Assembly: GCA_019930625.1 (NCBI GenBank)
Contig: CP082844.1
Coordinates: forward strand, 310,001 to 374,000
Reading direction: 5' to 3'
Length of the DNA stretch: 64,000 nucleotides
From: Nocardia asteroides
GTDB lineage: Bacteria > Actinomycetota > Actinomycetes > Mycobacteriales > Mycobacteriaceae
Shown one piece after another: positions 175 to 16,524 of this stretch. The position numbers were made by a program, and so were the translations under genes. Position 1 is the first letter of the stretch, and each line of letters begins with the position of its first letter. The notes under the pieces were generated by a model, which made no database searches, was not told where the DNA came from, and saw nothing but the letters and a program-made list of their open reading frames with translations.

Positions 175-2460
175 CTAGGGATCCCATGGGTCCGGCCCCG
201 CGTCCGGGTCGAAACTGTCGAGGTTGGATATCCTCCTGGTCGACCGCATCAGCAGCCGCCGGTTGGCCTCGCTCTGGTCGTTGAAATAGTTCTGTGCGGC
301 GTCCTGATGCTGCAGCGCCAGTTGTCGCCCGATGTGCTGGCGCACGTCTCGCCCGGCGGCGCGCCAATCGTCGGGTGTGATCGTTCCGAGTCGCTGTTCA
401 TCGTCTACTGCCGCCATCACCCGCTGCACGAACGGATGATTGTCGGGTACCGCGTTCATCGGCGCGATAGAGTGGCGCACGAAGTTGTCGGCCGCCACCA
501 CCGCCTGCGCCGCGAACGCGGGATGCGCTGGGATGCCTACGTGGCTCTCCACGGCACGGGCCGCGGCGACGGCTTTCTGCAACGGCGCGAAGCCGAACGG
601 ATTCTGCGACATACTGGCCTTCTGCACCGCCGCCGCACGCTGGGCGTCGACCACCTGCTGATCAGTGGCGTTCATCGCGCGCAGTATCGGCGCGATCATC
701 GAGTCCGGCACCTTGCTGTCGCCGAGCCCGTCGAGTACATTCGCGACCCCGAGGGCGGAGTTGATTCCGCCGTCCACGCCCTGCAACCGTCCAGCGGCTT
801 TGAAGCGCCAGTTCGCCCGAGCGGCATTGTTGTACTCGTGCATCTGCCGCAGCATCGGGGAGGTGACGAAACTGTCGAGTTCCTTCCGCTTCTTCCGGCG
901 GGAGAGCGGGCTCAACGGGTTCGGGGTGGCCGCAAGCAGCCAGGCGGTCATCGGCGACATGTTGATCGTGTTCAGCGCGGACATCCCGGCGACCAACCCG
1001 CGACCGCGCATCGCGCCTGCGGCCTGCGCACCACCCATGCCGAGTGCCGTTGCCGCCCCTCCTCCGCCGCCGGGCGGCGGTCCTTGGACAGCCGAGGCAA
1101 ATCGGTTCGCCACCCAATCGTTTCCGCTGCTCAGGCTCAGATCGAGTTTGCGAAGCTGGGAGATCCCGATGATCTCGACGGCGCCCGCGACGATGATCAC
1201 TGCCATGACCTGCCCACGGGCCTGCTGGAAGAGGTTGCCGAGGAACAGGACATAAATGCCGAGAAAGATGGTGTAGGCGGCCATGCGCGCGGCGGCGATG
1301 AATCCATCCACGATATTGCGGACCAGAAACGTCTGCGTCGGCCCGTACACGAAGCCACCCGCGGCGAATCCGAAGATCGTCATGAAACAGTGGTAGATCG
1401 CGTCCATCGCCGCCTTCATGACCCTGATGCCGAGATACGCCGCGAACAGCAGCAGGATGCCGCCGCACAGCAGCAGCAGTAACCCGGTGGCCACCTGGCC
1501 CATGCTCGGATTACTGGCCTTGGCGTAGGCGGCCGCGTCACCGCAGCTCTTCAGGCCGTTGCGCACGCGGTCGTCGTCACCGGACCGGACGCCCGCCGAC
1601 CACGCGGCGCTGCACGACGGGTTCTCATCCAGGACATGCCCGAAGTTCCACACCTGCAGCGGACGCCGCGCGAAATCGTCGGCCAGCGTCTCCTGCATCG
1701 TCGGGAGCAACTGGGACGGGTTCGGGCTTTCGTTGCCGTGCAATCCCGCGGCCACCGCGATGCCCAGATCACGGCCCTGCGCCAGCAGGCCGTGCGAGGA
1801 CAGCACCTCCGAAAGCGGCTCGGCTAGGAAAACCGGGCCGAGCACCGCGACCGTCACCATCGTCACGACCTGCACCGCGGCCTTGGCGTGGTATCCGCGC
1901 ACGATGAACCAGCCGACGAAGAACGCGCCGATGGCCGCCGCGGTCACCAGCACGACCGGCGTCGCGATCTGGCCGGTCAGAGCGTCGCCTACCCCCCGCA
2001 GCGCCGTTGCGAACCAGTCCATCCAACGGAAGCTCAGCGCGTAGCCGATCAGCCAGATGGCCGACGTCACGAGGGCCAGGTAGCCGATGAACTCCAGCCC
2101 GAGAATCGCCCACAGAATGGTGGCACCTGGATCGAGTGGACCCCCTCGATCGGTGGCGAAGGTGTAGCTGGACAGCGGAACACCTGAAGAGTCGCGGATA
2201 TTCATCCAGCTGAGGCCATCGACCTGGGAAGTCCCCGCCGTGGCGGCTGTGTTCTGGGCCGATGCGACCGCGCCCAGCAGACCGGGAAAGGCGACGAAGG
2301 CGACGAGGATCACGAGAAGCCCCGCGACTCGGCGGCGACGAGACCGATCACCGAGCCGGGCGCGCGCCCACGCGGCGACGCCGCCGGGACAGCGACCTTC
2401 CAGATCATCCGATTCGCGTTCCGGTCGTGCCGACCGGCTTCGCGGGGAACGCGCGACCAT
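175..2460 (-). CDS. VirB6/TrbL-like membrane channel protein, copy 1
   Basis: Predicted polytopic membrane protein of about 761 aa resembling VirB6/TrbL/TcpH subunits of type IV secretion systems. An Arg-rich cytoplasmic N-terminus is followed by a hydrophobic anchor (starting LLVILVAFVAF), an external loop with the motif SWMNIRDSSG, several further membrane helices, a Gly-rich stretch and a long soluble C-terminus. It is clearly paralogous to the gene at 6721-9183: both carry SWMNI-D-G, SSYTF-TDRGG, NDWV-NR and TAW motifs in the same order. The start is uncertain: ATG at 2460 follows GGAG closely, while ATG 2472, ATG 2493 (after AAGAGG) and TTG 2496 are in frame. Unlike the core genes it has a 240-bp upstream gap with its own palindrome, so it may be transcribed separately. 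Confidence 0.75.
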   Translation of the reverse strand: MVARSPRSRSARPERESDDLEGRCPGGVAAWARARLGDRSRRRRVAGLLVILVAFVAFPGLLGAVASAQNTAATAGTSQVDGLSWMNIRDSSGVPLSSYTFATDRGGPLDPGATILWAILGLEFIGYLALVTSAIWLIGYALSFRWMDWFATALRGVGDALTGQIATPVVLVTAAAIGAFFVGWFIVRGYHAKAAVQVVTMVTVAVLGPVFLAEPLSEVLSSHGLLAQGRDLGIAVAAGLHGNESPNPSQLLPTMQETLADDFARRPLQVWNFGHVLDENPSCSAAWSAGVRSGDDDRVRNGLKSCGDAAAYAKASNPSMGQVATGLLLLLCGGILLLFAAYLGIRVMKAAMDAIYHCFMTIFGFAAGGFVYGPTQTFLVRNIVDGFIAAARMAAYTIFLGIYVLFLGNLFQQARGQVMAVIIVAGAVEIIGISQLRKLDLSLSSGNDWVANRFASAVQGPPPGGGGGAATALGMGGAQAAGAMRGRGLVAGMSALNTINMSPMTAWLLAATPNPLSPLSRRKKRKELDSFVTSPMLRQMHEYNNAARANWRFKAAGRLQGVDGGINSALGVANVLDGLGDSKVPDSMIAPILRAMNATDQQVVDAQRAAAVQKASMSQNPFGFAPLQKAVAAARAVESHVGIPAHPAFAAQAVVAADNFVRHSIAPMNAVPDNHPFVQRVMAAVDDEQRLGTITPDDWRAAGRDVRQHIGRQLALQHQDAAQNYFNDQSEANRRLLMRSTRRISNLDSFDPDAGPDPWDP

Positions 2461-2473
2461 GGACTCCAGCATG

Positions 2474-2491
2474 GCGCAACAATTGTTGCGC
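2474..2491. promoter_or_regulatory. Perfect 18-bp palindrome at the start of VirB6-like copy 1
   Basis: GCGCAACAA-TTGTTGCGC is a perfect 18-bp palindrome. A further half-site GCGCAAC sits at 2504-2510. It lies either in the leader or in the first codons of the VirB6-like gene, depending on the start used. The flanking gap 2461-2699 is AT-richer than its surroundings and holds no other gene. This is a good operator candidate; the binding protein is unknown. Confidence 0.45.
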
Positions 2492-2699
2492 ATCAACCTC
2501 TTAGCGCAACGCTCTGTTCATCTTTCGGACATCTTCCGGAATTCCCGGGCAGTGAACAGGAAAGAACTTCAAAGCGCGAGTTTCACACTGCAGCAATTGA
2601 ATTGAACAAATGACCACTGCGCAGCACTGACTCGGATCTCGGAAGCGAACCGCTGCCCGTGCGGGCCTACTCCGGAACGAGCTCGGCTCACAACCGACC

Positions 2700-3917
2700 T
2701 CAATACCCCACGTACGAACCTCCGCCGCGCATCTGGACAATACCCGGCACATTGCTCACCGACCCATAGCGTTCGATGGCATAGCGCACGCCGGCGACGA
2801 TGTTGTCCACCGGGTTCCAAATATCCTTGTGTCCCGGAAGGGAATACGCGTTGAACGTCGGATCGATGGTCTGCATAAGACCTTTGGACGGGATCCCGGC
2901 CGCGGCGTTGCTGTCCCAGAGATTGATCGCGTTCGGATTTCCACCGGACTCGTGCTGGATGATTGCCGCGATATCGGCCGGATCGATCTGACGCGTGTCG
3001 TAGCCGTGCTGCCGCAACACATGCAGCGCTTCGTTGATCCACTGCCCCTGTTGCCCCGACGGCCGCGTGCGCGGCGGGCCGCCGCTGGGACCGCGTGTTC
3101 CCGGGTGTGTCGCGCCGCGTGGCCTGCGCGGCCGGACGGGACCCGATTCCCGCAGGTAGTTATCGGCGAGGGCGGCCACCCGCGCCGCGGTGAACACGGC
3201 GGATGCCTGCCCCTGACCGAGGACGGTTCCAGCGCGCTGTAGGGCGGTGTCCAAGGTGGAGATGACCAGCTGCCTGCTCGCGGCGGCGTCCTGGATGGTG
3301 CCCAGCGCGGTCAGAGCCGTGTTCACCTCGGCGATTATCGCTCCGATCGCAGCCCGTCCGTGCGTGGTGCTGTCGACCGCGCCGCCGAGGATGCGTTCGA
3401 GCTCGGCGTTCATCGACTGCGTCGCGTCGCCGTGCCGTGCCCGGTTCTGATTGCTCATTGCGTACTGAGAGCCCAGCGCGCCGTCCCACACTACGGGCCC
3501 GCTCGGCCGACCAGCCGGGATGTCTGGCGGCGCGTACGCCTGCCCTGTCGTCGCGGTCGGCGCTCCGTCACCGTATTGGACCGCAATAGCCGCGAGTGCA
3601 CCCATCGCCGCAGCCGCCATCGGCGTAGACGCGCCTGCCCCGGCGAATGCATCCGAGCGCGGCGCTGCTCCCGATCCGGAAGCAGTGGAGGAGTTTTCGA
3701 TGGCCGCAGGATGATTCTGGCTTCGTGGCTGCGCCGCAGCGGCGGGCGCCGTCGACGCGGGCGCACCGGTCAGCGGCGGCGCTGCCGGAGCCGTTCCTCC
3801 CCTCGCCGACGACTTGACCGGACGCCGAGGTGACGACGTGGTGGTCGCCCGGAAGTCACGTGTACCGGTGGGATCGTCGGATTCCGGCTCCGAAGGGGTT
3901 CGGTTCGTCGGCGCCAT
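2700..3917 (-). CDS. Secretion-associated lytic transglycosylase (SLT domain)
   Basis: 405-aa protein predicted to cleave peptidoglycan so the secretion channel can cross the wall. The first ~130 residues are Pro/Ala/Ser/Thr-rich with a hydrophobic stretch (MAAAAMGALAAIAV). A helical module (about 165-255) matches one in the neighbouring lysozyme-like protein. After a Pro/Arg linker, a C-terminal SLT-type domain shows IIQHESGGNP with the presumed catalytic Glu, GLMQTIDPTF and NIVAGVRYAIERYG, all characteristic of the family. The ATG at 3917 was chosen because the protein becomes low-complexity and ordinary from there; the frame upstream lacks plausible coding character. A hairpin at 4078-4100 separates it from the upstream gene. 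Confidence 0.82.
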   Translation of the reverse strand: MAPTNRTPSEPESDDPTGTRDFRATTTSSPRRPVKSSARGGTAPAAPPLTGAPASTAPAAAAQPRSQNHPAAIENSSTASGSGAAPRSDAFAGAGASTPMAAAAMGALAAIAVQYGDGAPTATTGQAYAPPDIPAGRPSGPVVWDGALGSQYAMSNQNRARHGDATQSMNAELERILGGAVDSTTHGRAAIGAIIAEVNTALTALGTIQDAAASRQLVISTLDTALQRAGTVLGQGQASAVFTAARVAALADNYLRESGPVRPRRPRGATHPGTRGPSGGPPRTRPSGQQGQWINEALHVLRQHGYDTRQIDPADIAAIIQHESGGNPNAINLWDSNAAAGIPSKGLMQTIDPTFNAYSLPGHKDIWNPVDNIVAGVRYAIERYGSVSNVPGIVQMRGGGSYVGY

Positions 3918-4077
3918 CAGTACTCCGTACCGACCTGGGCACTGAGCAAGCGCGGAACCGCGAGCTCGGCAGCGTGAATGCCGGTGCGGCAGGTATCGGC
4001 GGCCCCTGACATCGGTGTGGCAACCTCCGTCGATTCGCTGGCCCATGTCACGTGTCGCGCTGTGCACGCACCCCACG

Positions 4078-4100
4078 GAGGGCCTCGCGCTGAGGCCCTC
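4078..4100 (-). terminator. Hairpin between lysozyme-like and SLT genes
   Basis: GAGGGCCTC-gcgct-GAGGCCCTC is a perfect 9-bp stem with a 5-nt loop, 105 bp downstream of the lysozyme-like stop codon and upstream of the SLT start. No T-tract is evident, as is common in actinobacteria. It suggests the core operon ends here and the SLT gene has its own promoter in the 288-bp gap 3918-4205. Confidence 0.45.
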
Positions 4101-4205
4101 TCCCGCAACGTATCCGGAGCTTAGCCCAGTTTCCGAGGCTTTCTCACACAGCACGTTCCCGGAGGCGGGCATATCCCCTGAGACCGGCTCGAGCGCCGCG
4201 AACAG

Positions 4206-5762
4206 CTAGACGGCTACATTGCGCATGGCGGCCGCGACACTGTTGGCATAGGCGATACGTTGCCCTCGCGCCGCTCCGTCGCTTCTTTCGTAATATCGAT
4301 CGAACACCGCCGCCGCGGCAGCGGGCGTTTGCGCACCCCGGAGATATCCGTAGGCGGAGGATTCATTGGTCCGCAGTTCGTACATCATGAAATCGACCTG
4401 GACCTTCCAGTCGCTGACCGGCTTACCCTGCGCGGCGGCGTAACGCTCGAGGTTCTTCCGTCGGCCGCCCAGCCACTGGCACAGACCGATCGCGCCCTCG
4501 CGCGCGTTGTACGCGCCGGTGTTGAAGCCCGACTCGACCTTCATGTTGCCCACGATCCCCGCCGCCTGCGCGGGTGTGAGCCCGTATTTGGAGACGAGGT
4601 ACCGGTAGATGTCCGCAGGCTGGGGATTCGAGCCTCCGGGGAGGTTGTCCGTTCCGGGGGTGCCGGTTTTGGGTGGTGTGTAATTCCTACCCGCGATGTT
4701 GTACAGATACTGCTTGGTCAACCGATTGATCGCACCGGCAATATCATCCGACTTCGCCTGCCCACCCGACACGATCGCATGCGCCTTCCGCAACGCAGCA
4801 GTCAAAATCTGATGCACTTTCTGCTGCCCAGCCTTCGTATACGCCTGCGGCCCCAACTCCGCCAACGCCACATTCACCTCACGCACCAACCCCACGATCG
4901 CCTTCTTATCGACCTTGTTCGACCCCGCCAACCCCCGCATATACGACACCAACTGGTTATCCACATTATTGAACGCCTTCGCCGCATTCCGCTGAAACAA
5001 CCGCTTCGCCCGCACCGCCCGCGCCGTCTCACCACTCCCACCACCCGGCGAAATCCCCAACTGCTGCTGCAACTCCCGCACCCGCGGATCCGACGGATCC
5101 CCCTCCCCATACACCCCCTCCAACTGCTTCAACACCTCCAACGCCCGCACCGCCTCCGGCGACAACCCACCACCGGCCACACCCGACCCGTCAACTCCCG
5201 CGTTCGCCGCCACCGGCGCAGCCCCACCCCCACCACTCCCACCACCACTACCCAACCCCGACAACGCCGACGCGATCAACGGCAACATCCCCATCGCCAT
5301 CATCCCCGCCATCGGCAACACACCCGCCACCAACGCCGGATCCACCAACGGCCCCGGCTCCGGCCCACCCTCACCACCCGCACCCACCGGCGGCGCCTGC
5401 CCCACCCCCGGCGCCACCACACCACCCGGCACCACATCACCCGGACCCGGCAGCGACTGACCCGGAACACCCGGACCAGGAGCAGGAGCAGATTGAGGCT
5501 GACCAGCAACCGGAGGAGCCACACCCGGCTGAACCGGAACCCCGGCCTCCCCGCCACCATTCGGCTGACCAGACCTCGTTTGCTCCGGCCCGGGAGATCC
5601 GGGTTGCCCCGCTCCAGGGGAGGGACTGCCAGGCTGACCCGGCATCCCACCCGGTCGCGGCCGCTGCTGATCCGGCCGGTGCGTCCACGGTGTCACGGGT
5701 CCCGGCGGCGTCTCGGGATCCTCACCGGTCTCTACCTGGGGCTCTACGTCTGTCGGGGGCAT
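4206..5762 (-). CDS. Phage-tail-tip-lysozyme-like cell wall hydrolase
   Basis: 518-aa protein. The first ~150 residues are a Pro/Gly-rich linker, followed by a hydrophobic stretch (MAGMMAMGMLPLIASAL), a Gly run, a ~100-residue helical module homologous to that of the SLT protein (REVNVALAELG against AEVNTALTALG), and a C-terminal domain of the phage tail tip lysozyme type. The latter shows AAGIVGNMKVESGFN with the likely catalytic Glu, GAIGLCQW, and RIAYANSVAAAM. It probably opens peptidoglycan for the secretion-like complex. It lies 10 bp downstream of the NlpC/P60-like gene in an operon. Codons from about 4,690 to 5,550 favour G and T in third position, leaving the plus strand strikingly pyrimidine-rich, unlike the neighbours. 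Confidence 0.8.
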   Translation of the reverse strand: MPPTDVEPQVETGEDPETPPGPVTPWTHRPDQQRPRPGGMPGQPGSPSPGAGQPGSPGPEQTRSGQPNGGGEAGVPVQPGVAPPVAGQPQSAPAPGPGVPGQSLPGPGDVVPGGVVAPGVGQAPPVGAGGEGGPEPGPLVDPALVAGVLPMAGMMAMGMLPLIASALSGLGSGGGSGGGGAAPVAANAGVDGSGVAGGGLSPEAVRALEVLKQLEGVYGEGDPSDPRVRELQQQLGISPGGGSGETARAVRAKRLFQRNAAKAFNNVDNQLVSYMRGLAGSNKVDKKAIVGLVREVNVALAELGPQAYTKAGQQKVHQILTAALRKAHAIVSGGQAKSDDIAGAINRLTKQYLYNIAGRNYTPPKTGTPGTDNLPGGSNPQPADIYRYLVSKYGLTPAQAAGIVGNMKVESGFNTGAYNAREGAIGLCQWLGGRRKNLERYAAAQGKPVSDWKVQVDFMMYELRTNESSAYGYLRGAQTPAAAAAVFDRYYERSDGAARGQRIAYANSVAAAMRNVAV

Positions 5763-5772
5763 CGCTTACTCA

Positions 5773-6663
5773 TCACATTCCACTGCCGAGTACTCGCTTC
5801 ACCCGCACGTCGTTCGCGTTCGGGATGGCCAGCTCGACGAGTTCACCGGTCGGCGCATCGGTGGTGACGAGCCGTGTGTCACTGACGGCGATGCCTACCT
5901 GGGTCGGCGCGTTGTTCCGAAAATTCCAGAAGACCAGGTCGCCCGGAGATACCGCGGCGAGATCCACCCGATGACCACACGCGCCTTGTGCCGCGAGGGT
6001 GTTCGGCAGCACGACTACCGCCGCATCGCCGATCTCCCCACATGCCCGCCGCGCCGCACCGCTCGATTGCCCCGCACCACCTCCGGCCGGCGGCTGCGCC
6101 GCCGTGCCCTCGGTAGTCGCGCATCGACCTGTCGTTTGCGCGGCCGAGGCGTGGTAGATCACCGATCTGGTGAACTCCGCGGCGGTCTCACGGCCACCGG
6201 AGCCGCTGCGGGCCCCACTCGCCGCCAGCTGTGCCAGCGCGAGCTGACGCGCACACTCCGCGCCGATGCCCGAGTTGCCGGTCAGTAGGGGGACATTCTG
6301 GCGCGGCGCGAGTCTCATCGCTGTGGAGCAGGAACGCAGCCAATCGGAGGCGTTGGTGTCGTCGGGTGCGATGGTGAGTTCGGCGTACGGATTCGTGGTG
6401 GGCGCGGTGGTCACCCCCGCCGCCGGTGTCCTCGGCGCGGTCGGCCGTACCGCCGCCGCGGCGCGAGTGGGCGTCACGGTCAGGGACGGGTCGGGCCCTA
6501 CCGCACTGTCGCACTGATAATGCAGGTCGGAGGCGATCGCGGAGGCCGTGTTGCCGATGATCACCACCAAGGCCACCAGGACGGCCGACACGACACTCGC
6601 GGCTCCCAGCATTGCCCATATCCAGAACGGCATCACCACGAGCGTCCAGAGACGTCCGATCAT
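5773..6663 (-). CDS. Membrane-anchored NlpC/P60-like protein, possibly inactive
   Basis: 296-aa protein with one N-terminal membrane anchor (residues ~12-42), a Pro/Thr-rich external linker and a C-terminal region resembling an NlpC/P60 fold: LPNT, VSPGDLVFWNF, QVGIAVSD. In active family members a Cys about 15 residues before LP and a His before VGI are catalytic. Here the nearest Cys (in RACGEIGD) is only ~11 residues before LP, and the His position holds Gln (TQVGIAV). This makes an enzymatically inactive, structural role plausible. In the pCW3/Tn916 plan the equivalent position is taken by the TcpG/Orf14-type hydrolase. It lies 57 bp downstream of VirB6-like copy 2. The fold assignment is by motif only. 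Confidence 0.65.
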   Translation of the reverse strand: MIGRLWTLVVMPFWIWAMLGAASVVSAVLVALVVIIGNTASAIASDLHYQCDSAVGPDPSLTVTPTRAAAAVRPTAPRTPAAGVTTAPTTNPYAELTIAPDDTNASDWLRSCSTAMRLAPRQNVPLLTGNSGIGAECARQLALAQLAASGARSGSGGRETAAEFTRSVIYHASAAQTTGRCATTEGTAAQPPAGGGAGQSSGAARRACGEIGDAAVVVLPNTLAAQGACGHRVDLAAVSPGDLVFWNFRNNAPTQVGIAVSDTRLVTTDAPTGELVELAIPNANDVRVKRVLGSGM

Positions 6664-6720
6664 CGCGTACCTTTCTGTGTAGTCCGAGTCCTCGTCCGGA
6701 ATTCGAAATGTCGAGGCGGG

Positions 6721-9183
6721 TCAGCGGCTCCGGGCATTCCTGAACTGCTCCAGCAGGTGGTTCGGAATCGGCTGAAGCGGCTGCGCCGGGTTCGGCTGCG
6801 GGAGCGAGACCACACCCGTCGTATGCCGTTGCGCCTGCCACTGATCGGTCTGGGTGGCCTTGTCGATCTCCGAGCGGAGCACACGAATCCGCTCGAAGTC
6901 GGTCGGATCCTCAGCCACCCACGCTGTGGCCGCTTGCACCCGCAGCGCGTGCTCGTTGGCGATCCAGCTCCTCAATCGATCCGCGTCCACCTGAGTCAAG
7001 TCCGTACCGCCCATCCGGATTCTCGCAGCTCCTGCCTCGGTGATCGGCCCGTCCACATGGTTCTGCAGCGTTTGGATCCATTGCTTGGTCGGATTATCGA
7101 TGTAGCCCTCGCCGAGCGCGCGCAGGTCGTCCGAGATGCGGACACCGCCGGGGTAGTCGCCTCGGTACCGCGCGACGCTGGCTTCCAACCCGTACAGCCT
7201 GGGCCTGGCCCATTCCGGATTCAGGTAGTCGCGCTCGAAATGCTTGTGCGCGGCAAGCACTCGTCCGAGGTGCTTGGATGCCAGTGGCTCATCATCGGCG
7301 TGCCGGATGATATCCGCTCGCGCGATGGTCGCCTTCTGCCCTCGGCCCCAGCTGAAACCGGCCATCCGCAGGGCGGACTGCACGCCGCCCATCATGCCTG
7401 TGACGTGCGCGACGTTCTCCGCGGCGAAAGCGGCGGCTCGTTCGCTACCGCGGCGAGATCGAGACCTGGCGATGCCGGACCGCGCGACATCACCGGCGGA
7501 CACGCGATCGTACAGGTTACCGAGCCCAGCCTCTCTCATGTCTCGCGTACTCATGCTCTTCGCCTTGTTCCGCTTGTCGAGGTGATCCACCCGCGAGAAG
7601 GGATTCAACGGGTTGAGGCGGCCGCCTGCGATCCATGCGGTGAGCGGCGAGCTGTTGATCGTGCTCAGCGCGCCGAGCATCGCGAGCGGGGCCAACGAGT
7701 TGGCCGCACCCGCGTTGCCCATTCCCAAACCCATACCGAGCGGGCTGCCACCGGCAGCGCCTACCCCCTGTCCGGCATTACCGGACTGTATCGCCGCCCC
7801 GATGCGGTTGACCACCCAGTCGTTCGCATCGTCGATGTTCCTGCTGATGCGGCGCAACTGAACGATAGCGATGACCTCCACGCCCGCGCCGATGACGAAG
7901 ACCACCATGATCGAGTCGCCCGCCGATCGAAACAGACTGCCCAAGAACAGCTCATAGAACCCGAGGAAGATCACGAAGAAAGCCATTTTCGCGGCGGACA
8001 TGAAGCCGTGCACCACGCAACGGACGGTGAATGTCTGCGTCGGGCCGTAGATGTACCCGCCCGCGGCGAATCCGAAGATCGTCATGAATCCGTAGTAGAC
8101 GAGATCGAGGACCGCCCACATGATCTTGATGGACAGGTAGGCGGCGAAGGCCAGGAGGATGATCGAGCACAGCAGCAACAGCAACCCGGCTCCGATTTGA
8201 CCGACGCTCGGATTCTGGGTCGCGGCATACGCGGTGCTGTCGCCGCACGACCTCATCCCGTTCTTGACCCGGTCTTCGTCACCGGACCTCATGCCGGCCG
8301 TCCACATCGCCCGGCAGGATGGGTTCTTGTCCACGACGTGCCCGAAATTCCACACCTGCAATGGAAGACGGGCGAAGTTGTCCGCCCTGCTCGCCTGCAT
8401 GGTGCTGAGCAACTGATCCGGGTTCGGGTTGCTGTTCCCGTTCAGACCCGCGGCCACAGACAGCCCGAGGTCTCGGCCCTGTACCAGCACTCCGTGGTCG
8501 GAGAGAGCTTTGGACAGCGGATCGGACAGGAAGACCGTCCCGAAGATCGCGACCATCACCATCATGATGACTTGCCACGCGGCCTTGGCATGGTAACCGC
8601 GCACAATGAAATACCCGACGAAGAACGCGCCGATCGACACGGCCGTCGCCGCCATCAAAGGCGTCGCGATCTGGGCCGTGACGTTCGTGGCCATCCCTCG
8701 CAACGGTGCGCTGAACATGTTCATCCACCGGAAATCCAGCGTCTGATCGGGAAGCCAGAGCCCGGCCGTCACCAACGTCAGCCACGGAACGAAGACGAGA
8801 ATCAACAGGCCCCACAGCAGCATATTCCCCGGATTGAGCACTCCGCCGCGATCGGTCACGAACGTATAGCTCGAAACATTGACTCCCTGGGAGTCTTTGA
8901 TGTTCATCCAGCTGGTCGCACTGTTGGGCGCCGACGTCTGGACCAGTGTGCCGTTCTGCGCGATGGACACCGCGTGAATGAAGCCGGGGAAAACGAACAG
9001 CAGGAAGAGCGCGATGAGGATCCACGCGATTCGGCGACGACGACGGGACGCGGCGACCCAGGTCCGGAACCGTCGGAATATCACCTGCGGCCGCCAACGC
9101 TCGGTGTCCCAGAACTGTGGTTCCCAAGGCATCCCGAAGGAAGGCTGGTCTCTTCGAACGCTCGAGGCACGCAACGATCTCAT
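6721..9183 (-). CDS. VirB6/TrbL-like membrane channel protein, copy 2
   Basis: 820-aa polytopic membrane protein, the second and longer paralogue of the product of 175-2460. A basic N-terminus leads into a hydrophobic anchor (IAWILIALFLLFVF), an external loop (SWMNIKDSQG, SSYTFVTDRGG), about six to eight membrane helices including YGFMTIFGFAAGGYIYGP, a Gly-rich segment and a long charged C-terminal half. VirB6/TrbL/TcpH proteins form the inner-membrane channel of type IV secretion. The ATG overlaps the stop of the VirB4-like gene (ATGA), so the two are probably translationally coupled and act together. Copy 1 and copy 2 could replace each other or form a heteromer; this is inference. Confidence 0.8.
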   Translation of the reverse strand: MRSLRASSVRRDQPSFGMPWEPQFWDTERWRPQVIFRRFRTWVAASRRRRRIAWILIALFLLFVFPGFIHAVSIAQNGTLVQTSAPNSATSWMNIKDSQGVNVSSYTFVTDRGGVLNPGNMLLWGLLILVFVPWLTLVTAGLWLPDQTLDFRWMNMFSAPLRGMATNVTAQIATPLMAATAVSIGAFFVGYFIVRGYHAKAAWQVIMMVMVAIFGTVFLSDPLSKALSDHGVLVQGRDLGLSVAAGLNGNSNPNPDQLLSTMQASRADNFARLPLQVWNFGHVVDKNPSCRAMWTAGMRSGDEDRVKNGMRSCGDSTAYAATQNPSVGQIGAGLLLLLCSIILLAFAAYLSIKIMWAVLDLVYYGFMTIFGFAAGGYIYGPTQTFTVRCVVHGFMSAAKMAFFVIFLGFYELFLGSLFRSAGDSIMVVFVIGAGVEVIAIVQLRRISRNIDDANDWVVNRIGAAIQSGNAGQGVGAAGGSPLGMGLGMGNAGAANSLAPLAMLGALSTINSSPLTAWIAGGRLNPLNPFSRVDHLDKRNKAKSMSTRDMREAGLGNLYDRVSAGDVARSGIARSRSRRGSERAAAFAAENVAHVTGMMGGVQSALRMAGFSWGRGQKATIARADIIRHADDEPLASKHLGRVLAAHKHFERDYLNPEWARPRLYGLEASVARYRGDYPGGVRISDDLRALGEGYIDNPTKQWIQTLQNHVDGPITEAGAARIRMGGTDLTQVDADRLRSWIANEHALRVQAATAWVAEDPTDFERIRVLRSEIDKATQTDQWQAQRHTTGVVSLPQPNPAQPLQPIPNHLLEQFRNARSR

Positions 9184-11708
9184 GAACGTACCGACCGCTC
9201 CGGTAGCGCCGATCGCATGCCGCTGACGCTGGTGGGGGTGCTGGTGATGGCCGCGGCGCGGTCCGGACGCGCCGGACCGAGAACTTTGCCCCGACCGATG
9301 CGGTTGAGTGCGTCACGCATGAACATCTCGCCTCGTCGCTCCTCGGGAATCTGGCGACCGGGTCCGACCGGAGGCGAGGTCTCTTCCCGTAGGATCTGCA
9401 ACAAGAAGGGAGCTTCGTCCAGGTCGACGCCCAGCCACTCCAAGCTGTTGCGCGCCAGTGTCTCGTCGCGCTGACGGAAGACGAACCGGTTCGGGATGAG
9501 GTTGTGCGCCGCGCCCTGGAAGTCGGTGGCCGGGTCGTGCGAAGCGAGCCCGATCGCGGCCAAATGCTTACGGCCGTCGCGACTGAAATCCGACGTAACT
9601 GCCGAGCCGACCTGCGTCTGCGTGAAATGGTGCGCTTCGTCGCCGACCAGCAGGCCGAATCTGCCGTTGTCGGAGAGGAATGCCTCCCGCGCCGCGACAC
9701 CGACCAACTCGTAGAGCGCGGTACCGAGCCGCTTGGTCAACGGCAGCCGGTTGTACAGGTGCGGAGTGGTCAGTTCCTCGGCGGTGGGCAGTTGCAGGTG
9801 GTGGCTGCGCACGACGGTCGCGGCGGCGTCGAGGCGCAGCGGTCGCAGCGTGGGGTCGAACAGCACCGGCACCCGCTCCACCACGGTGCTCAGCCGTGCG
9901 GCGAGATCGGCGTACTCCTCCCCCCGTTCGGGGTGCTCCCGTAACCGGCGTACGACGTTGAACAGATCGAGCAGGCTCTTGATCTTGTGCTCGGCCATGC
10001 CCCTGGCGGACAACAGATTGCTCACCGCTGCGCCCGCGCCCGAGGTCGGTGAAAGATCCAGCAGCGGAAGGATCGAGTCCAGCGCACGCTCACCCGCGAT
10101 CCGTGGGTTGAACAACCGTAGCGGGTCCAGCGACACCGTGGGATTGGCCAGGTCGATGATGACCGCGTCATCGATCGACCGCGCGAAATGCTCCCATTCG
10201 CCGACCTGACTGCGGTCGATAGCGAGGAACTGCCCGCCCATGTCGTGCACGAGCACAGCCATCAGCTTGAGAAAATACGACTTCCCCGAGCCGAGTTCGC
10301 CGGTCACCGCGAACGAGGCGGACAGGTCGTGCAGCGCGGCCTCCATGATGCCGAAGTGGATCGGCTCGAAATGCCCCGACAGCAGGTTGACCCCGATCAC
10401 CGGGCCGCTGTCGTCACCGATCTGACTGGTGGTGAACGGCACGAAAGCGGCCCACATGTCCGAGGGGACGATGTGCGCGAAGTCGTCGAAAGCTCGGCGC
10501 GGCGGGCTACCGGGGATCAGCATCGACCAGAGGTCCACTTGCGCGCCGACCGGAGCCGTCATGTCGACCTGGAATCGCTTGTACCGACGCTTGAGGGTGT
10601 TGACCGCGTCCATCGTGGCGTCGCGCGAGGGGCCGCCGATGGCGATCACAGTGGTGAACGAGACTTCCGATTCGCCGCCGTTGACTTCGAAATGATGGTT
10701 GTACTCACCGAGCATCTGCGCTTTCGAAGCAAGCGTGTTCTGCGCGAACGAGACCTCCTGATCGCGCTGATCCATTTGCTCGCCCAGCCTGCGCAGGTTG
10801 AGTTCGTTGTTCTTGAGCACCAGTTCGGCGGGCTTGGTCGAGATCCGCATTCCCCAGTCCACGGTGACGTCCCCGAGACCTTCGAGCACGTTCAAGAACT
10901 CACTGCCGCCGGGAAACGTCATGCCCGAGTAGGGGAAGGAGTGGGGCGTCAGCATCGCCTGATAGGACGGGCGGTACTCGAAATCCGGCTGTACCACCTT
11001 GATCACAGGGACGAACGACGGCCGGATACGCCGGTTGCTATCGGCTTGGGCCCCCTCGTCGAGCGCGGCGGAGCGGAACACCGCGGCCGTCGCGTCGTCC
11101 AGCGCGCCCGCACGGGTGGGCGCCACCGGATCTCCGGCCGCGCCGCGGGAAAGATAATGCTCCCACAACCATTGGAACAACGCCGCGGGTACCGGGACCG
11201 GATCGAAGTCTCCGCCGATCCTGGACAGGATCTGGTTCGCCTTCTCGTCGTACTCATCCAGGTCGGCACGGGAGATCGCTGTCGCATCGATGGTGGTGGT
11301 GCTGCCACGCCACAGGCGCGACAACGCGGACATGCTGGAGTTGCTGGTCCCTACCGGGATCGAGAGCAGGAAGACGCGGGTCTGCGGCATGATCGCATGC
11401 ACGCGCTCATAGGAGGCCACCACCTCGTCGGCGTAGTCCTCGCACTCGTCCAGGTCGACGCCCTCCACCATTTTGGTGAGCACGTCGATCGTGTTCAGCC
11501 GCGCCTGGATGCCCAAAAGCAGCGACCCACTGGGCAAGTTCGTGATCAGCGAGTGGTGCGCCATCTTCACGTCATATTTGTCGCTCGCCTTGCGCAATCC
11601 GTAGCCGAGCGGATTGATGAAGTAAGTGGCGGTGACCAGGCCGGAATGGGTGAACTGGAGATTGCCGCGGATCGCGGCCGTGGGCTGTAGATCTCGTCCG
11701 AGTGCCAT
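9180..11708 (-). CDS. VirB4/TcpF-like secretion ATPase
   Basis: 842-aa cytoplasmic ATPase expected to power assembly or transport by the type IV secretion-like complex. Walker A is GELGSGKS at about residues 470-477 and Walker B is LLVGDEAHH at about 686-694. The ~450-residue N-terminal half resembles the VirB4/TraC N-terminal region, and the following stretch (FLAIDRSQVGEWEHFA, SLDPLRLF) is typical of conjugative ATPases. The start ATG at 11708 overlaps the preceding stop as TGATG, and the end overlaps the next start as ATGA, showing tight operon coupling. An upstream in-frame start at 11771 is disfavoured because it lies within the preceding gene. No coupling protein of the FtsK/TcpA type is in the window. 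Confidence 0.88.
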   Translation of the reverse strand: MALGRDLQPTAAIRGNLQFTHSGLVTATYFINPLGYGLRKASDKYDVKMAHHSLITNLPSGSLLLGIQARLNTIDVLTKMVEGVDLDECEDYADEVVASYERVHAIMPQTRVFLLSIPVGTSNSSMSALSRLWRGSTTTIDATAISRADLDEYDEKANQILSRIGGDFDPVPVPAALFQWLWEHYLSRGAAGDPVAPTRAGALDDATAAVFRSAALDEGAQADSNRRIRPSFVPVIKVVQPDFEYRPSYQAMLTPHSFPYSGMTFPGGSEFLNVLEGLGDVTVDWGMRISTKPAELVLKNNELNLRRLGEQMDQRDQEVSFAQNTLASKAQMLGEYNHHFEVNGGESEVSFTTVIAIGGPSRDATMDAVNTLKRRYKRFQVDMTAPVGAQVDLWSMLIPGSPPRRAFDDFAHIVPSDMWAAFVPFTTSQIGDDSGPVIGVNLLSGHFEPIHFGIMEAALHDLSASFAVTGELGSGKSYFLKLMAVLVHDMGGQFLAIDRSQVGEWEHFARSIDDAVIIDLANPTVSLDPLRLFNPRIAGERALDSILPLLDLSPTSGAGAAVSNLLSARGMAEHKIKSLLDLFNVVRRLREHPERGEEYADLAARLSTVVERVPVLFDPTLRPLRLDAAATVVRSHHLQLPTAEELTTPHLYNRLPLTKRLGTALYELVGVAAREAFLSDNGRFGLLVGDEAHHFTQTQVGSAVTSDFSRDGRKHLAAIGLASHDPATDFQGAAHNLIPNRFVFRQRDETLARNSLEWLGVDLDEAPFLLQILREETSPPVGPGRQIPEERRGEMFMRDALNRIGRGKVLGPARPDRAAAITSTPTSVSGMRSALPERSVRS

Positions 11709-12250
11709 CAGGGGCTTCCTCCGGGGGCTGGATCGCTGCCGTTGCCGTCGTTTCCATTCAGTCGCCGCCACAAGTCGGTCGCCTTGCCGCCCCCGCTCAT
11801 CACCTCGAGCAGCCGGATACCGGATTTCGGCTCCGGGGTCTCCACCGCGTCGACGCGGTCGGGCAGCAAGAGAACCACCGTCTCCTCGATGAACATGGTG
11901 TGGCGGGCCGAGTCACCGGTGATCGGCATGCCGGAGGCCGATACGGGCTTGCGGTAGACGACGAGCCTGCCCAGCCATAGAGCACGGGAGGTCATCCGAA
12001 CCCCGGTGTACGGCACGAGTCCGAGGACGAAGACCGCCAGTATGGTCATCGCCAGACCCGCGATGAAGGTGACGGCGGGATTGACCGGGAAGGCCATCGC
12101 GCACACCGAGGTCACCGACATCATCACCACGGCGGCGGCGACCTGGGGCAGGGTGTAGGGGCCGAACGGGAGTTTCTGCCCGTTCTGCGCCTTGCCGATC
12201 ATCGTGGGCACACGTTTGATCGGCGTGAACACCTTGATCACTTGGGTCAT
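11708..12250 (-). CDS. TcpE-like small conjugation membrane protein
   Basis: 180-aa protein with two adjacent membrane helices at about residues 35-80 (VAAAVVMMSVTSVCAMAF and TFIAGLAMTILAVFVLGLV), then a soluble tail containing RKPVSASGMPITGDSARHT. Size, topology and its position immediately before a VirB4-like ATPase match TcpE of pCW3 and Orf17 of Tn916; PrgI-type proteins are an alternative family name. The ATG at 12250 overlaps the stop of the upstream gene (ATGA), and its own stop overlaps the ATPase start. The longer open frame upstream is out-of-register reading of the TcpD-like gene and was rejected. Confidence 0.72.
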   Translation of the reverse strand: MTQVIKVFTPIKRVPTMIGKAQNGQKLPFGPYTLPQVAAAVVMMSVTSVCAMAFPVNPAVTFIAGLAMTILAVFVLGLVPYTGVRMTSRALWLGRLVVYRKPVSASGMPITGDSARHTMFIEETVVLLLPDRVDAVETPEPKSGIRLLEVMSGGGKATDLWRRLNGNDGNGSDPAPGGSP

Positions 12251-12507
12251 CGATACCCGCCGATAGGGTGATCGGGGACGATGAGGTTGGCGTCCGTTCG
12301 CGCGTAGTTGATGGTCGTGGGCAGAATCCAGATCACCACCCCGGCCATCAACCCCGAGCCGAAGACGACGATGATCCGCGCCGGCGACAGCCTGGATTTC
12401 GCTGCCTCGGAGATCACCACGCCGATCGTGACGATGGCGATGATGATCATCCCGCCCCACCGGACAAAGATAAGGATGCCATAGAGGATGTTGCTGAGAT
12501 TACCCAT
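12247..12507 (-). CDS. TcpD-like small two-helix membrane protein
   Basis: 86-aa protein with two predicted membrane helices (about 6-35 and 43-64) separated by a short basic loop (SEAAKSRLSPAR). This is the layout of TcpD of pCW3 and, more loosely, of VirB2-type small subunits. A GAGAGG Shine-Dalgarno sequence lies just upstream of ATG 12507. It starts 16 bp after the TcpC-like stop and its end overlaps the TcpE-like start. The sequence alone is too short to prove homology; position and topology carry the call. Confidence 0.65.
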   Translation of the reverse strand: MGNLSNILYGILIFVRWGGMIIIAIVTIGVVISEAAKSRLSPARIIVVFGSGLMAGVVIWILPTTINYARTDANLIVPDHPIGGYR

Positions 12508-12523
12508 CGGGCTGCCTCTCGGA

Positions 12524-13549
12524 TCAGTTCTGCGTCGCCGGCGGAATAGTCACCGACGGCGAGGAAGACGAGGTCGAAGTGGGCGGCGCTCCGCCGCGGG
12601 AATCCTGGCCGACTACCACCGCCAGCGGACTCGACAATGCGGGAATCGGATCTATCGACACCACCTGCCACTGGCCCCCGTTGCGGATCATGGTGAGCGG
12701 GTAGGCCAGTGTCGCGGCGGCGCCGGTGTCGGCTTTGGGGTTGACGGTGGCCAGCACTTGGGCCTTCGCGCCACCGGAGCCGCAGCTCGAATCATCCGTG
12801 GTGAGCGAGGTCAGCTCGACGGCGGTGTAGGGAGCGGGCTTGAGCGCGGCCAGCCCGGCATCCGGTGTGGTGTATCGCGCCACGTCGCCGCTGCCTGCCA
12901 GCATGGCGCTCAGGAAACCTGCGGCGACCTGACCGAGCGGTGTGTCCGGTGCGCAGGGCGAGCCGTAGGCAAGTTTGAGGTCGACGCCCTTCGCGGGAGG
13001 CTGCACCACCGCGGGCATCGACAGCGCACGAAGCCGCCCATCCGATACCGACACCGCGACGCGGTAGAACTGCCGATGATCCGGCGCGGTGGCGGCGCCG
13101 GCTTTGCCGACTCGCACCGAGACCGTCACCGACCAGACATCGACCGCGCCGGTCGACATCACGCGCGACACATAGGCGACCGACGGGTCGGACACTTGAC
13201 GCGCGGACGAAGGCAAGGTGATCTGCTGGTTGGAGCCCACGAATTCGCCGATCCGATCCTGTTGCCCCGCAACGGCGGTCAGATAGGTGACGACGAACTG
13301 CTCGGCGAAAGAGCCCGCCAATTGGGCACGCCCGACAATTGCCGTCGTCGAAGCGTCCGACGGCGGAGGCGGGGGGGTGTCGAAGACGCTGAGAACAGCG
13401 TGGCCGCCGCCGAGCACGGCGAGTACCGCCAGTACGGCGACCACAATGTTGTCGCGACGGCGGCGTGCGGCCATCCGGCGAAGCAGTGCCTCACCAGAAT
13501 CTGCCGGACTACGAACCACTGTCCTCACTCTCGAAATGGTAGAGAGCAC
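12524..13549 (-). CDS. TcpC-like conjugation protein
   Basis: 341-aa bitopic protein: an Arg-rich cytoplasmic tail, one membrane helix (NIVVAVLAVLAVLGGGHAVL, about residues 34-53), then an external region built of two NTF2/VirB8-like halves (about 75-190 and 205-305) and a Ser/Thr/Pro-rich C-terminus. This is the architecture of TcpC of pCW3 and Orf13 of Tn916, a VirB8-like assembly factor required for conjugation. The GTG start at 13549 places the basic tail directly ahead of the helix. It heads the TcpC-D-E-VirB4-VirB6 series and lies 46 bp after the Rv3651-like gene. Confidence 0.75.
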   Translation of the reverse strand: MLSTISRVRTVVRSPADSGEALLRRMAARRRRDNIVVAVLAVLAVLGGGHAVLSVFDTPPPPPSDASTTAIVGRAQLAGSFAEQFVVTYLTAVAGQQDRIGEFVGSNQQITLPSSARQVSDPSVAYVSRVMSTGAVDVWSVTVSVRVGKAGAATAPDHRQFYRVAVSVSDGRLRALSMPAVVQPPAKGVDLKLAYGSPCAPDTPLGQVAAGFLSAMLAGSGDVARYTTPDAGLAALKPAPYTAVELTSLTTDDSSCGSGGAKAQVLATVNPKADTGAAATLAYPLTMIRNGGQWQVVSIDPIPALSSPLAVVVGQDSRGGAPPTSTSSSSPSVTIPPATQN

Positions 13550-13595
13550 AGTCGTTCTTAACCGGCCGGTAGTTCCCAGCGATGGGAATCAAACG

Positions 13596-14732
13596 TCAGC
13601 AGGCGGGGTTGCTTTTCATCCTCCCCGCGAGCCAATGCCGCAATTGTTCGTCATAGCCGATCGGCGCGCTGCGCTGCCGTGACTCCAGTACCTGGCGATG
13701 GGTTTCCAGCAGCGGGACGTCATCGGCGGCGCGAACCAGCTGCGCGATAGCCAGCTGTCTGCTCGAGTACCCGGGATAGGGGTAGAGCAGTAGCGATGTG
13801 GGCGTGTAACCACCGCCGTAGTTGAGCACCCGCAGCGTCACGCCCGCGCTGTCACCGGATCGCAGCCGCTCGCCGAGTTCCGCGAGCCGGGGACGGTCGT
13901 CGGGATGGAACACGTCGACCGGCCGGAAGAGATAATCCCAACGAACCCACGGTGCGGGATCGGTGAGCCAGTGCGAGATGCTGGTGCGCTCGAGTTGCAC
14001 CACGGCCAGGTGCGTTCCCGCCCGGCGATGCGCCTCGCGCAACCCGATTCGCTCCAAGGTCGGCCACGCCGGCGGTGCGTTCTCCGAGGTGACATCCTCG
14101 ATCAACCACCAGGCGCCGCGGGTGCGCTCGTCGTCACGGGCGCGAATCGTGATCCGCCACTGCGCCGGGCGGCCGAACCCGTGCACCACGGTGGTGTCGA
14201 ACTGCATCCGGTCACCCGGCTTGGGGTCGTAGAGGAGATCGAGAACCTCCGCATGCCGATCGAAGCTCGACACCCGGTGGAACAGTTCCGCGATCGACAG
14301 CCTCGGGACGTACTGTTCCGCGGCGCTGCCGGACAGCCGCGTGATACCGCTCGGTTGCTGGATTGTCTGACTACTCAAGTCCCAGATGGCGCCCACCGCC
14401 GGGCGCAAGGTGGGCACCCGTTCGGACGCCGGGCCGAGCCACAGCCGCACAGCGTGCACGTCACCGGCCGGTCCGAAGATCGGACGGATGAGCAGTTGGT
14501 GCTTGCCAGCGCGCGTTTGAATGACCAGGTCGACATCCTTGGCTTGATCATGCGCGGTGTGAATCGCCTCCGTCAATCCCGCAGTCGTTAGCTTGTCGTA
14601 CAGGACGGGCGCTTTCGACAGCGTTCGCTGCAATACCCGCTGCCAGCTGGCGAACTCACGCGGCGCATCCCCCACCGACGCCACGGACATGCCGTCCGGC
14701 GCCAACGTCTCGATAGTCACCCATGGAATCAC
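13596..14732 (-). CDS. Rv3651-like GAF/PAS-type protein
   Basis: 378-aa soluble protein. The N-terminus (WVTIETLAPDGMSVASVGDAP) matches the Rv3651-like N-terminal family of mycobacteria, known from structure to combine GAF- and PAS-like domains; later stretches (residues ~120-350) fit two PAS-like repeats. The ligand and role are unknown, and I infer a sensor or scaffold. It is the first gene of the secretion-like cluster, 46 bp before the TcpC-like gene. GTG 14732 is preferred because family members begin just before the WxxIETL motif and because a short upstream reading frame ends there in a GTGA overlap; TTG 14789 is an alternative. Confidence 0.65.
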   Translation of the reverse strand: MIPWVTIETLAPDGMSVASVGDAPREFASWQRVLQRTLSKAPVLYDKLTTAGLTEAIHTAHDQAKDVDLVIQTRAGKHQLLIRPIFGPAGDVHAVRLWLGPASERVPTLRPAVGAIWDLSSQTIQQPSGITRLSGSAAEQYVPRLSIAELFHRVSSFDRHAEVLDLLYDPKPGDRMQFDTTVVHGFGRPAQWRITIRARDDERTRGAWWLIEDVTSENAPPAWPTLERIGLREAHRRAGTHLAVVQLERTSISHWLTDPAPWVRWDYLFRPVDVFHPDDRPRLAELGERLRSGDSAGVTLRVLNYGGGYTPTSLLLYPYPGYSSRQLAIAQLVRAADDVPLLETHRQVLESRQRSAPIGYDEQLRHWLAGRMKSNPAC

Positions 14733-14806
14733 TGCGCCACTTCGCTTCGCACTTGCCCGTACCCAGCCGTTCCTCCGGATCCGCTCCAACCCGGATGAGA
14801 CAACAT
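14729..14806 (-). CDS. Possible 25-codon upstream ORF
   Basis: ATG 14806 opens a 25-codon frame whose TGA overlaps the GTG start of the Rv3651-like gene (GTGA). The ATG lies only a few bases after the start point predicted from the promoter at 14819-14847, so translation could begin at the end of the transcript and re-initiate at the GTG. The peptide has no recognised features. The support is positional only. Confidence 0.25.
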   Translation of the reverse strand: MLSHPGWSGSGGTAGYGQVRSEVAQ

Positions 14807-15104: not shown

Positions 15105-15995
15105 TCACGCTCCGATGTTTGCCGCCAACACGCCGGCGCCCGCGAGCACTGCGATATCGCCGAGTTCGGAAGGAATGACTCGCAACCCCGGCAGATAGCT
15201 CAGTCTGGCGTGCGTGGCGACCGCCTCGCCCAGCGGTTTCCACAGGGCGGGACCGCCTTCGGCCATCGAGCCGCCGATGACGACGAGGTCCATGTCGAGC
15301 AGCGCTGCTACCGATGCGACAGCTCGGCCGAGCGCCGTACCCGCTCGGCCGAGCGCAGCGGCGGGAATGGCGTCACCAGCACGGCCGGCCTCTACGAGGT
15401 CGGATACCGAGGTGCCGGTCCATCCCTGCTCCCGAGCCCAGCGCACCGCCGACGCCCCACTGGAAACGGCCTCCAGGCAGCCGCGCCCGCCGCATACGCA
15501 GCGTTCGTCGAAACCGGGAACGAGAACATGGCCGACATGTCCCGCGTTGCCGGTCCGCCCGACCACCGTGAATCCGCCGACGACGACTCCGCCACTGATG
15601 CGGTCGGACACGGTGATCACCATGGCGTCCATCACCGTGTTCAGGACGCCGAGGCTCCGCTCGGCCAGCGCCAGGCAGACTCCGTCCAGCGCCAGCTGAA
15701 TTTTTGCGGTTGGAAACAACTTTCGCGCAGCGTCCACGATCGCGAAACCCGCACGCCACTCGGGCACGTCCGCGGGTGCGACAACACCCGCCGCCATATC
15801 GATCGGTCCCGCCGAGGCGATGCCGAGGGCAGTGACCTCGCCCCCACCCGCGGCTTCGAGCAGGATGTCCCGGCAACGGTCCCACGCGCCGGAGCTGGGG
15901 ATCGGGATCCTCCGGATCTCATCCTTCTCGACGTCGTCGGCGACTCGGCACGCCGCGAACGTGGAGGACCCGATCTCCAGGGCCAGCAGTGTCAT
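15105..15995 (-). CDS. ROK family protein (sugar kinase-like)
   Basis: 296-aa ROK family protein. It shows the nucleotide-binding start (LLALEIGSSTFAACRV), the GNAGHVGHVLV signature and the zinc-binding motif CVCGGRGCLE (Cys-x-Cys-x4-Cys), in family order. Members phosphorylate glucose or amino sugars with ATP or polyphosphate; those with an added N-terminal HTH are repressors, which this one lacks. The canonical DxGGT phosphate-1 motif is replaced by EIGSST, so the residues contacting phosphate are unusual and activity is uncertain. It stands alone, 50 bp downstream of the WhiB-like gene in the same direction. Confidence 0.8.
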   Translation of the reverse strand: MTLLALEIGSSTFAACRVADDVEKDEIRRIPIPSSGAWDRCRDILLEAAGGGEVTALGIASAGPIDMAAGVVAPADVPEWRAGFAIVDAARKLFPTAKIQLALDGVCLALAERSLGVLNTVMDAMVITVSDRISGGVVVGGFTVVGRTGNAGHVGHVLVPGFDERCVCGGRGCLEAVSSGASAVRWAREQGWTGTSVSDLVEAGRAGDAIPAAALGRAGTALGRAVASVAALLDMDLVVIGGSMAEGGPALWKPLGEAVATHARLSYLPGLRVIPSELGDIAVLAGAGVLAANIGA

Positions 15996-16498: not shown

Positions 16499-16524
16499 AG
16501 CCATCTCCGGGGATGCCTTGCACA

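Follow-up and report, generated by a model that had tools for sequence, protein, structure and literature searches.

Elements that carry both a type VII (T7) and a type IV (T4) secretion system are known among mycobacterial plasmids and as one integrative and conjugative element (PMC12803027, PMC7478629, PMC4791881, PMC12857230). In plasmids of the pRAW and pS2b types and in ICEMyc226, ESX genes, virB4 and tcpC are described on a single element (PMC12803027, PMC7478629), and transfer of pRAW is reported to require both systems (PMC12857230). A 2025 review, in which T4 systems without VirD4 are described as releasing or delivering proteins, calls it unknown whether the T4 and T7 parts make one chimeric channel (PMC12857230). 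The present analysis concerns a T4 gene module at the left end of a 64,000-nucleotide stretch of the Nocardia asteroides chromosome (the window, positions 310001-374000 of contig C1 in the 7.4-Mb genome G000). This module is one half of a single conserved T7 plus T4 unit that also holds PknG, an amino-acid permease and an NAD-glutamate dehydrogenase (NAD-GDH). The unit is considered, with a probability of roughly one half, to derive from the hybrid T7/T4 conjugation machines found on mycolata plasmids and to have been domesticated, mainly for protein export.

Like the hybrid plasmids, the unit combines ESX genes with virB4 and tcpC. It differs from them in the absence of a detected FtsK-type coupling gene or relaxase, in its presence in 92 of 148 Nocardia species and in its PknG, permease and NAD-GDH genes; the best-ranked non-Nocardia plasmid match to its VirB4 was that of M. 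avium p1-JPH1 (45.7%). T4 systems that lack VirD4 (Ptl, Brucella VirB, Bartonella Trw) resemble the unit in having no coupling protein, and both Ptl and Brucella VirB secrete proteins (PMC12857230), but these systems serve a Gram-negative envelope and have no T7 partner. The ESX-1AN locus, placed immediately outside ESX-1 and described in N. brasiliensis and N. cyriacigeorgica and not in N. farcinica, comprises eccA-E, mycP, espG, espI, pe and ppe (Newton-Foot et al., 2016, PMC4791881), and this set is present in the unit too, with an espI-like gene in place of espI. In the accessible text of that paper, type IV secretion is mentioned for pRAW-type plasmids and not for ESX-1AN; N. cyriacigeorgica, one of the ESX-1AN hosts, also has the unit VirB4 (L103). 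Scores of the unit EccB, obtained with unequal constructs, were 318 bits for EccB3, 250 bits for EccB5 and 182 bits for EccB1, and identity of the unit ESX system with ESX-1AN is not proven. Among the publications listed on type IV secretion, type VII secretion or conjugation in connection with Nocardia or ESX, no title or abstract opening reports this locus, subscription journals being mostly outside the search.

All ten adjacent minus-strand gene calls between window positions 175 and 14789, recognised in a first-pass annotation made from the sequence alone, were confirmed (Table 1). As in T4 systems of the Tcp/Tn916 (MPF-FA) type, such as that of pCW3, the module includes TcpC and VirB4/TcpF, both identified by profile, together with wall hydrolases, and its genes follow the pCW3 order TcpC-D-E-F; unlike systems of the pCW3 type, the unit has no detected TcpA-type gene or relaxase and is coupled to a full ESX system. 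The Tcp assignments of the first-pass annotation were borne out for TcpC, the sole PF12642 match in a profile search of the 7.4-Mb genome, and for VirB4, the only protein of the whole genome with a match covering most of AAA_10. They gained no profile support for the TcpD-like protein, for which a Pfam scan gave zero matches, or for the TcpE-like protein, which did not match the TcpE profile. VirB4 matched the NCBIfam TcpF model at 4.4e-17 and 61 bits, far below the model cut-off of 1100 bits. The overlapping core junctions noted earlier were read in the sequence as TGATG at TcpE/VirB4 and as ATGA at TcpD/TcpE and VirB4/VirB6, and because of the TGATG junction VirB4 probably starts at 11708 (842 amino acids) rather than at 11771. 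Two of four scanned relatives of VirB6 matched the CD3337/EF1877 family (2.4e-7 and 8.4e-8), against which the VirB6 paralogue of the window gave E=0.095, and part of the VirB6 homologues in UniRef carry the name TrbL/VirB6; comparison of the VirB6 sequence with solved structures gave no useful match. VirB6, TcpD and TcpE are therefore putative identities, drawn from topology, gene order and weak or indirect matches.

The composition of the module was compared in ten relatives and in 43 named loci with both 10-kb flanks, a requirement that excludes most of the closest relatives, whose contigs end sooner. TcpC, TcpD, TcpE, VirB4 and a VirB6 were matched in 40-kb pieces from all ten relatives, with VirB6 on the opposite strand in two. 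All 43 two-flank loci matched TcpC, TcpE, VirB6, the NlpC-like wall protein, the Rv3651-like protein and the WhiB-like protein, while TcpD and the lysozyme/CHAP DUF4226 proteins were matched in 42, ROK in 40, MerR in 39 and the SLT gene in 21. The leading gene was rightly named Rv3651-like, with matches also in 10 of 10 relatives. Of the proposed wall-active proteins, those with lysozyme and SLT domains were recovered by profile and the NlpC/P60 match fell below cut-off. The second VirB6-like paralogue listed in the first-pass annotation is real in this genome but is not a regular part of the module, as two copies were found in 2 of 10 relatives and in four of the 43 loci, the other 39 having one. 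An RpiR/SIS regulator adjoining it (L002:18672-19664, minus strand) was seen in one of ten relatives and in none of the 43 loci, whose flanks would barely extend to its position. Along with the second VirB6, this regulator gene and the precise complement of wall hydrolases are counted as accessory. Just left of the window, on the opposite strand (L002:16810-18576, plus strand), the unit has one more DUF4226 hydrolase, the third, which bears a CHAP domain.

The first-pass annotation had called for the DNA to the left to be inspected for FtsK/TcpA, relaxase and integrase genes. A full ESX locus was found in this region, largely on the strand of the module, and its EccC was the one FtsK-type motor seen in the unit. 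Gene calls there were from a simple GC-based caller. In leftward order, genes for proteins of the EspB/PPE, YbaB, EspC, NlpC/P60 and WXG100 types are followed by EccA, EccB and EccC, then by two small proteins at the Esx position (weak matches only), PE, PPE and EspG, and then by a MinD/ParA-type protein, EccD, MycP and EccE. EccB (profile match 1.3e-165), EccC, EspG and EccD were identified by Pfam, EccA by an 82% match to an annotated plasmid eccA, and MycP and EccE by matches to annotated plasmid genes; the espI-like call rests on the MinD/ParA-type match and on position. EccC has three Walker A motifs. Beyond EccE lie a helix-turn-helix protein, an F5/8-type-C-like protein (just below cut-off), a membrane protein and NAD-GDH, the last identified through its annotated plasmid homologue, followed by an SPFH/zinc-ribbon protein, the amino-acid permease, PknG (1.6e-129), a DUF1707 protein and a MerR regulator. 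Most of the segment from PknG (261607) to the right-hand MerR gene (327495; genome coordinates) has a collinear counterpart in plasmid NZ_CP107850.1 of Nocardia sp. NBC_00511, which is without the second VirB6 and RpiR genes at the corresponding place. A MerR/DUF1707 pair is present left of PknG in both replicons, with the plasmid MerR inverted and extra ESX-type genes between. From this collinearity and the shared pair, the unit was delimited to 260306-327495, about 67 kb, the left edge being less sure. An ESX locus had been named beforehand as a finding that would speak against the T4 assignment; the ESX genes proved to be the other half of a T7 plus T4 unit, which sets them apart from ESX loci of the ordinary kind. 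Immediately left of the unit are two neighbouring AAA/LuxR-type regulators (859 and 842 amino acids; L004:3670-8859, minus strand). Large NAD-GDH genes occur twice in this part of the genome, at C1:267025-272049 near the left end of the unit and, about 80 kb away, at window 38149-43197 beyond the tRNA flank.

The linkage of the two halves is fixed across the genus. When presence and absence were mapped over 148 Nocardia genomes (one per species, some drafts), as had been suggested, VirB4 of the unit (at least 76% identity) was found in 92 genomes and EccB (at least 62%) in exactly the same 92, neither in 56 and only one of the two in none (Fisher P 3e-42, with genomes treated as independent and relatedness ignored). 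In this count the VirB4 of G002, split over two contigs, was scored as present and that of G022, at 36%, as absent; the next EccB copies among the matches listed were at most 44% identical. All 52 same-contig VirB4/EccB pairs that were entered (of 92) lay on the same strand, and 51 were in the same order 23-89 kb apart, the order being reversed in G099. EccA fell inside the 40-kb piece in eight of the ten relatives, and EccB was 60 kb away in G120 and 55 kb away in G037. Among 30 genomes, of which 19 have the unit and 11 do not, the membrane-protein gene next to NAD-GDH was found in 19/19 and 0/11, respectively. NAD-GDH lay within a few kilobases of this gene in 17 of the 19 (in G037 it is at the other end and in G111 none is nearby), and PknG was within 20 kb in 18, the exception being G047. 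Seventy-eight named loci, found by VirB4 patterns among the best 80 of 93 stretches, were all titled Nocardia but two from a Mycobacteriaceae bin, and among 397 genomes across the order VirB4 matches above 80% occurred only in Nocardia, all others being at most 39%. A VirB6 homologue 73% identical to that of the unit was noted in a record labelled Streptomyces gardneri (P0033), possibly a mislabelled Nocardia.

The absence of a coupling gene distinguishes the unit from its nearest relatives. An FtsK-type ATPase was present downstream of VirB6 in all five non-Nocardia plasmid relatives examined (H3, H4, H5, H12 and H15), that of H4 being annotated as hypothetical. A hidden Markov model (HMM) built from these five proteins, which share 28-36% identity with one another, detected no coupling gene in G000 between 230 and 374 kb, where it matched only EccC (1.9e-16) and window 61509-63206 (1.5e-6); the latter is a HerA-like YjgR helicase by sequence. 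Nor was one detected in 40 kb of each of ten relatives, in 199 of the 329 kb of plasmid NZ_CP107850.1 or in the 78 named loci, 46 of which reach 9.9 kb downstream; EccC was matched in those pieces that contain it. Outside its training set, the HMM matched G377 (2.3e-176) and a second system of G076 (3.9e-173). This second T4 system, on a 98.5-kb contig (C50, L256) of a genome that also has the unit, has a VirB4 about 45% identical and lies beside ESX-type genes, with its FtsK-type coupling gene directly after an SLT-type gene. VirB4s of the unit were monophyletic (20/20, support 1.0), and their nearest sisters, H3 and the second G076 system, are both coupling-positive; one loss of the coupling ATPase on the stem of the Nocardia clade would be the simplest reading. 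No relaxase was found among unit genes scanned with Pfam, the only PF08751 match of the genome being on plasmid C2. Tyrosine integrases (PF00589) were matched 17 times genome-wide, at C1:38991 in the nearest case and nowhere within 260-374 kb, serine integrases being outside the search. The earlier statement that the window holds no relaxase, coupling ATPase or integrase was in this way extended to the conserved unit for relaxases, the coupling ATPase and tyrosine integrases.

The main rival reading, regarded as rather doubtful, is that the unit is still a DNA-transfer machine, either serving in trans plasmids with their own relaxase and coupling protein or moving double-stranded DNA through EccC. 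TcpA and FtsK-type motors may move double-stranded DNA, and the two plasmid coupling FtsKs that were scanned against NCBIfam matched EccC/EssC models best. The 58,137-bp plasmid C2 of the same genome (L250-L252) has a MobF relaxase (PF08751, 2.6e-86), a VirD2-like relaxase (PF03432, 6.5e-10) and a VirD4-type coupling protein (PF12696, 8.6e-28; PF02534, 5.9e-15), while over the whole genome AAA_10 is matched for most of its length by the unit VirB4 alone; NZ_CP107850.1 carries the unit together with a MobF relaxase and a TraM-recognition protein. Furthermore, transfer without a relaxase has been suggested for relaxase-less mycobacterial linear plasmids with a hybrid T7/T4 system (PMC12803027). 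Nevertheless, the plasmid examined for the in-trans case is that of one genome, the clade of the unit is without the coupling gene that its nearest sisters retain, and C2 may have an unrecognised mating module of its own, all of its open reading frames having been compared with the unit proteins and the coupling HMM, and nine of them plus one fragment with Pfam. C2 also has a Tn3-type transposase, and no VirB4 was recognised on it.

Purifying selection acts on VirB4 as it does on a core gene. In comparisons of G000 with three relatives, dN/dS was 0.051-0.094 for VirB4, 0.091-0.137 for EccB and 0.051-0.087 for the native GDH; Walker A and B motifs of VirB4 were intact in 19 of 19 genomes, across which the mean distance of VirB4 was 0.168, compared with 0.158 for a core protein. 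Splits in common with the core protein numbered 5 of 16 for VirB4 and 4 of 16 for EccB, against at most 3 in label shuffles, and Mantel r was 0.39 between core and VirB4, 0.61 between core and EccB and 0.82 between VirB4 and EccB. In the one-contig genomes examined the unit was chromosomal, at different sites among complete genomes, and its VirB4 was also found on plasmids of two named strains. The tRNA-Pro/tRNA-Gly flank is common to 5 of 10 relatives (six genomes including G000); in G040, which has no unit, the same flanks enclose other genes, and in four other unit-less genomes read the tRNA region was rearranged or only the right flank was retained. The term immobilised, used in the first-pass annotation, accordingly held only in part, given the varied chromosomal sites and the plasmid copies. 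From selection, the core-gene comparison, patchy presence, varied flanks and plasmid copies it was concluded that the unit is maintained and selected, yet often moves or is lost. Plasmid copies, patchy distribution, differing positions and the shared tRNA-Pro flank could also be those of an ordinary mobile island or plasmid remnant, with the T4 system a leftover of a conjugative plasmid that has no host function of its own. This is unlikely, as dN/dS values of 0.05-0.09 and Walker motifs intact in 19/19 genomes are not expected of decay, TcpC, TcpD, TcpE and VirB6 were matched in 42-43 of 43 two-flank loci, VirB4 diverges much as a core protein does and the unit yielded neither a tyrosine integrase nor a relaxase.

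Protein export by a domesticated conjugation machine appears the most likely use of the unit, because the unit is without DNA-loading components, and selection on what remains is strong. Several observations weigh against this. Absence of a coupling gene is not unique to the unit, since no coupling match was obtained in G022 (36% VirB4) or in four systems with VirB4 at 26-29% (20 kb examined, two contigs being too short for this comparison). VirD4-type proteins are present outside the unit on the genome's own plasmid C2 and, as a TraM-recognition protein, on NZ_CP107850.1, which also has its MobF relaxase and an integrase far outside the unit, and DNA may be a cargo through EccC. Distances of VirB4 correlate weakly with those of core genes (Mantel 0.39 and 0.29), presence of the unit needs 8 changes on a 30-taxon single-gene tree with no clumping, and a mobile element would account equally well for its patchy presence, its occurrence at more than one genomic position and its copies on plasmids. 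Among other distant systems, VirB4-VirB6 pairs of 27-28% identity from the same family, on a 5.4-Mb contig of G299 and a 225-kb contig of G385 (L260 and L262), have an EccA-like gene close downstream.

In the mechanism proposed for protein export, TcpC, TcpD, TcpE, VirB4 and VirB6 would build the inner-membrane and wall part of the T4 system, and the DUF4226 hydrolases and NlpC/P60-like protein would open the wall. The ESX half (EccA-E, MycP, EspG) would bring EccC and substrates of the PE, PPE, EspB and EspC types. Following loss of the coupling ATPase in the stem lineage of the Nocardia clade, the machine may be fed by EccC, no other FtsK-type motor having been seen in the unit. Both halves might then form a single trans-envelope machine whose main cargo would now be protein, namely ESX-type substrates and wall hydrolases, with the Rv3651-like sensor and the PknG/NAD-GDH/permease cassette tying it to nutrient state. 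The full form of this proposal, namely one chimeric and mainly protein-exporting machine in which EccC took over substrate loading and which is under its own PknG/GDH circuit, is put forward tentatively. Competition or scavenging could instead be the role of the hydrolases and the cassette, as parts of an envelope or contact machine in which hydrolases and ESX proteins act against neighbouring cells and the cassette uses the amino acids released. DUF4226 proteins do have interchangeable hydrolase ends (lysozyme, SLT and CHAP in this genome, NlpC/P60 elsewhere), ESX-side proteins have fast-changing middle or end parts, and PknG and NAD-GDH accompany the unit in most genomes that carry it. However, no toxin domain was recognised, immunity genes having been sought no further than the gene list, the WXG555 protein has a variable end of apparently low complexity, and the hydrolases may act on the producer's own wall only, as in conjugation machines; this alternative was judged quite improbable. 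A protein adjoining EspB (L002:14413-16023, minus strand) has a conserved end and a variable remainder, is often present as two tandem copies in relatives and matches DUF4226 in its N-terminal part (hhalign).

Table 1. Features of the T4 module and its right flank (window positions; aa, amino acids; TM, transmembrane segment)
Feature	Position	Strand	Description and evidence
Second VirB6-like protein, accessory	175..2496	-	773 aa; 41% identity with first VirB6 in alignment
DUF4226 (below cut-off) + SLT transglycosylase	2700..4172	-	490 aa; PF01464 2.3e-12, PF10774 4.1e-4
DUF4226 + phage tail lysozyme	4206..5762	-	518 aa; PF18013 (Phage_lysozyme2) 1.8e-37, PF10774 3.2e-27
NlpC/P60-like wall protein	5773..6663	-	296 aa, one TM (18-36); PF00877 0.017, below cut-off
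VirB6-like polytopic membrane protein	6721..9183	-	820 aa, 8 hydrophobic segments
VirB4/TcpF ATPase	9180..11708	-	842 aa from TGATG start; AAA_10 1.9e-33, over cut-off
TcpE-like protein	11708..12250	-	180 aa, two TM; position, topology, ATGA junction
TcpD-like small membrane protein	12247..12507	-	86 aa, two TM; position and topology only
TcpC/VirB8-like protein	12524..13549	-	341 aa, one TM (35-53); PF12642 E=1.1e-19, over cut-off
Rv3651-like sensor, first gene of module	13596..14789	-	397 aa from first possible start (start uncertain); PF18007 3e-11 (N domain), PF21043 1.7e-8 (C domain)
ROK-family protein, right end of unit	15105..15995	-	PF00480 1.6e-34; adjoins module in 9/10 relatives
WhiB-like protein	16046..16564	-	PF02467 0.0029, below cut-off; adjoins module in 9/10 relatives
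MerR regulator, right edge of conserved unit	16767..17495	+	PF13411 3e-18; collinearity with plasmid NZ_CP107850.1 ends here
tRNA-Pro(tgg) + tRNA-Gly(tcc), chromosomal flank	17900..18097	-	

Judged from gene content and comparison, this fused T4/T7 locus without DNA-loading parts resembles conjugation equipment that has taken on a different role, probably the export of proteins. The unit offers a natural test of the one-channel question, its two halves staying together across the genus without a DNA-loading part, and it bears on the movement of ESX systems between plasmids and chromosomes and on the passage of proteins across the mycolic-acid outer layer. VirB4 of the unit is present in N. abscessus and N. 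nova, which are opportunistic pathogens, as well as in N. cyriacigeorgica, also described as one (PMC9239197), and the T4 half therefore belongs in surveys of Nocardia secretion systems. If the two halves do form one chimeric machine, the unit would be a mainly protein-exporting T4 system of the Tcp type that is widespread in a genus of mycolic-acid bacteria.

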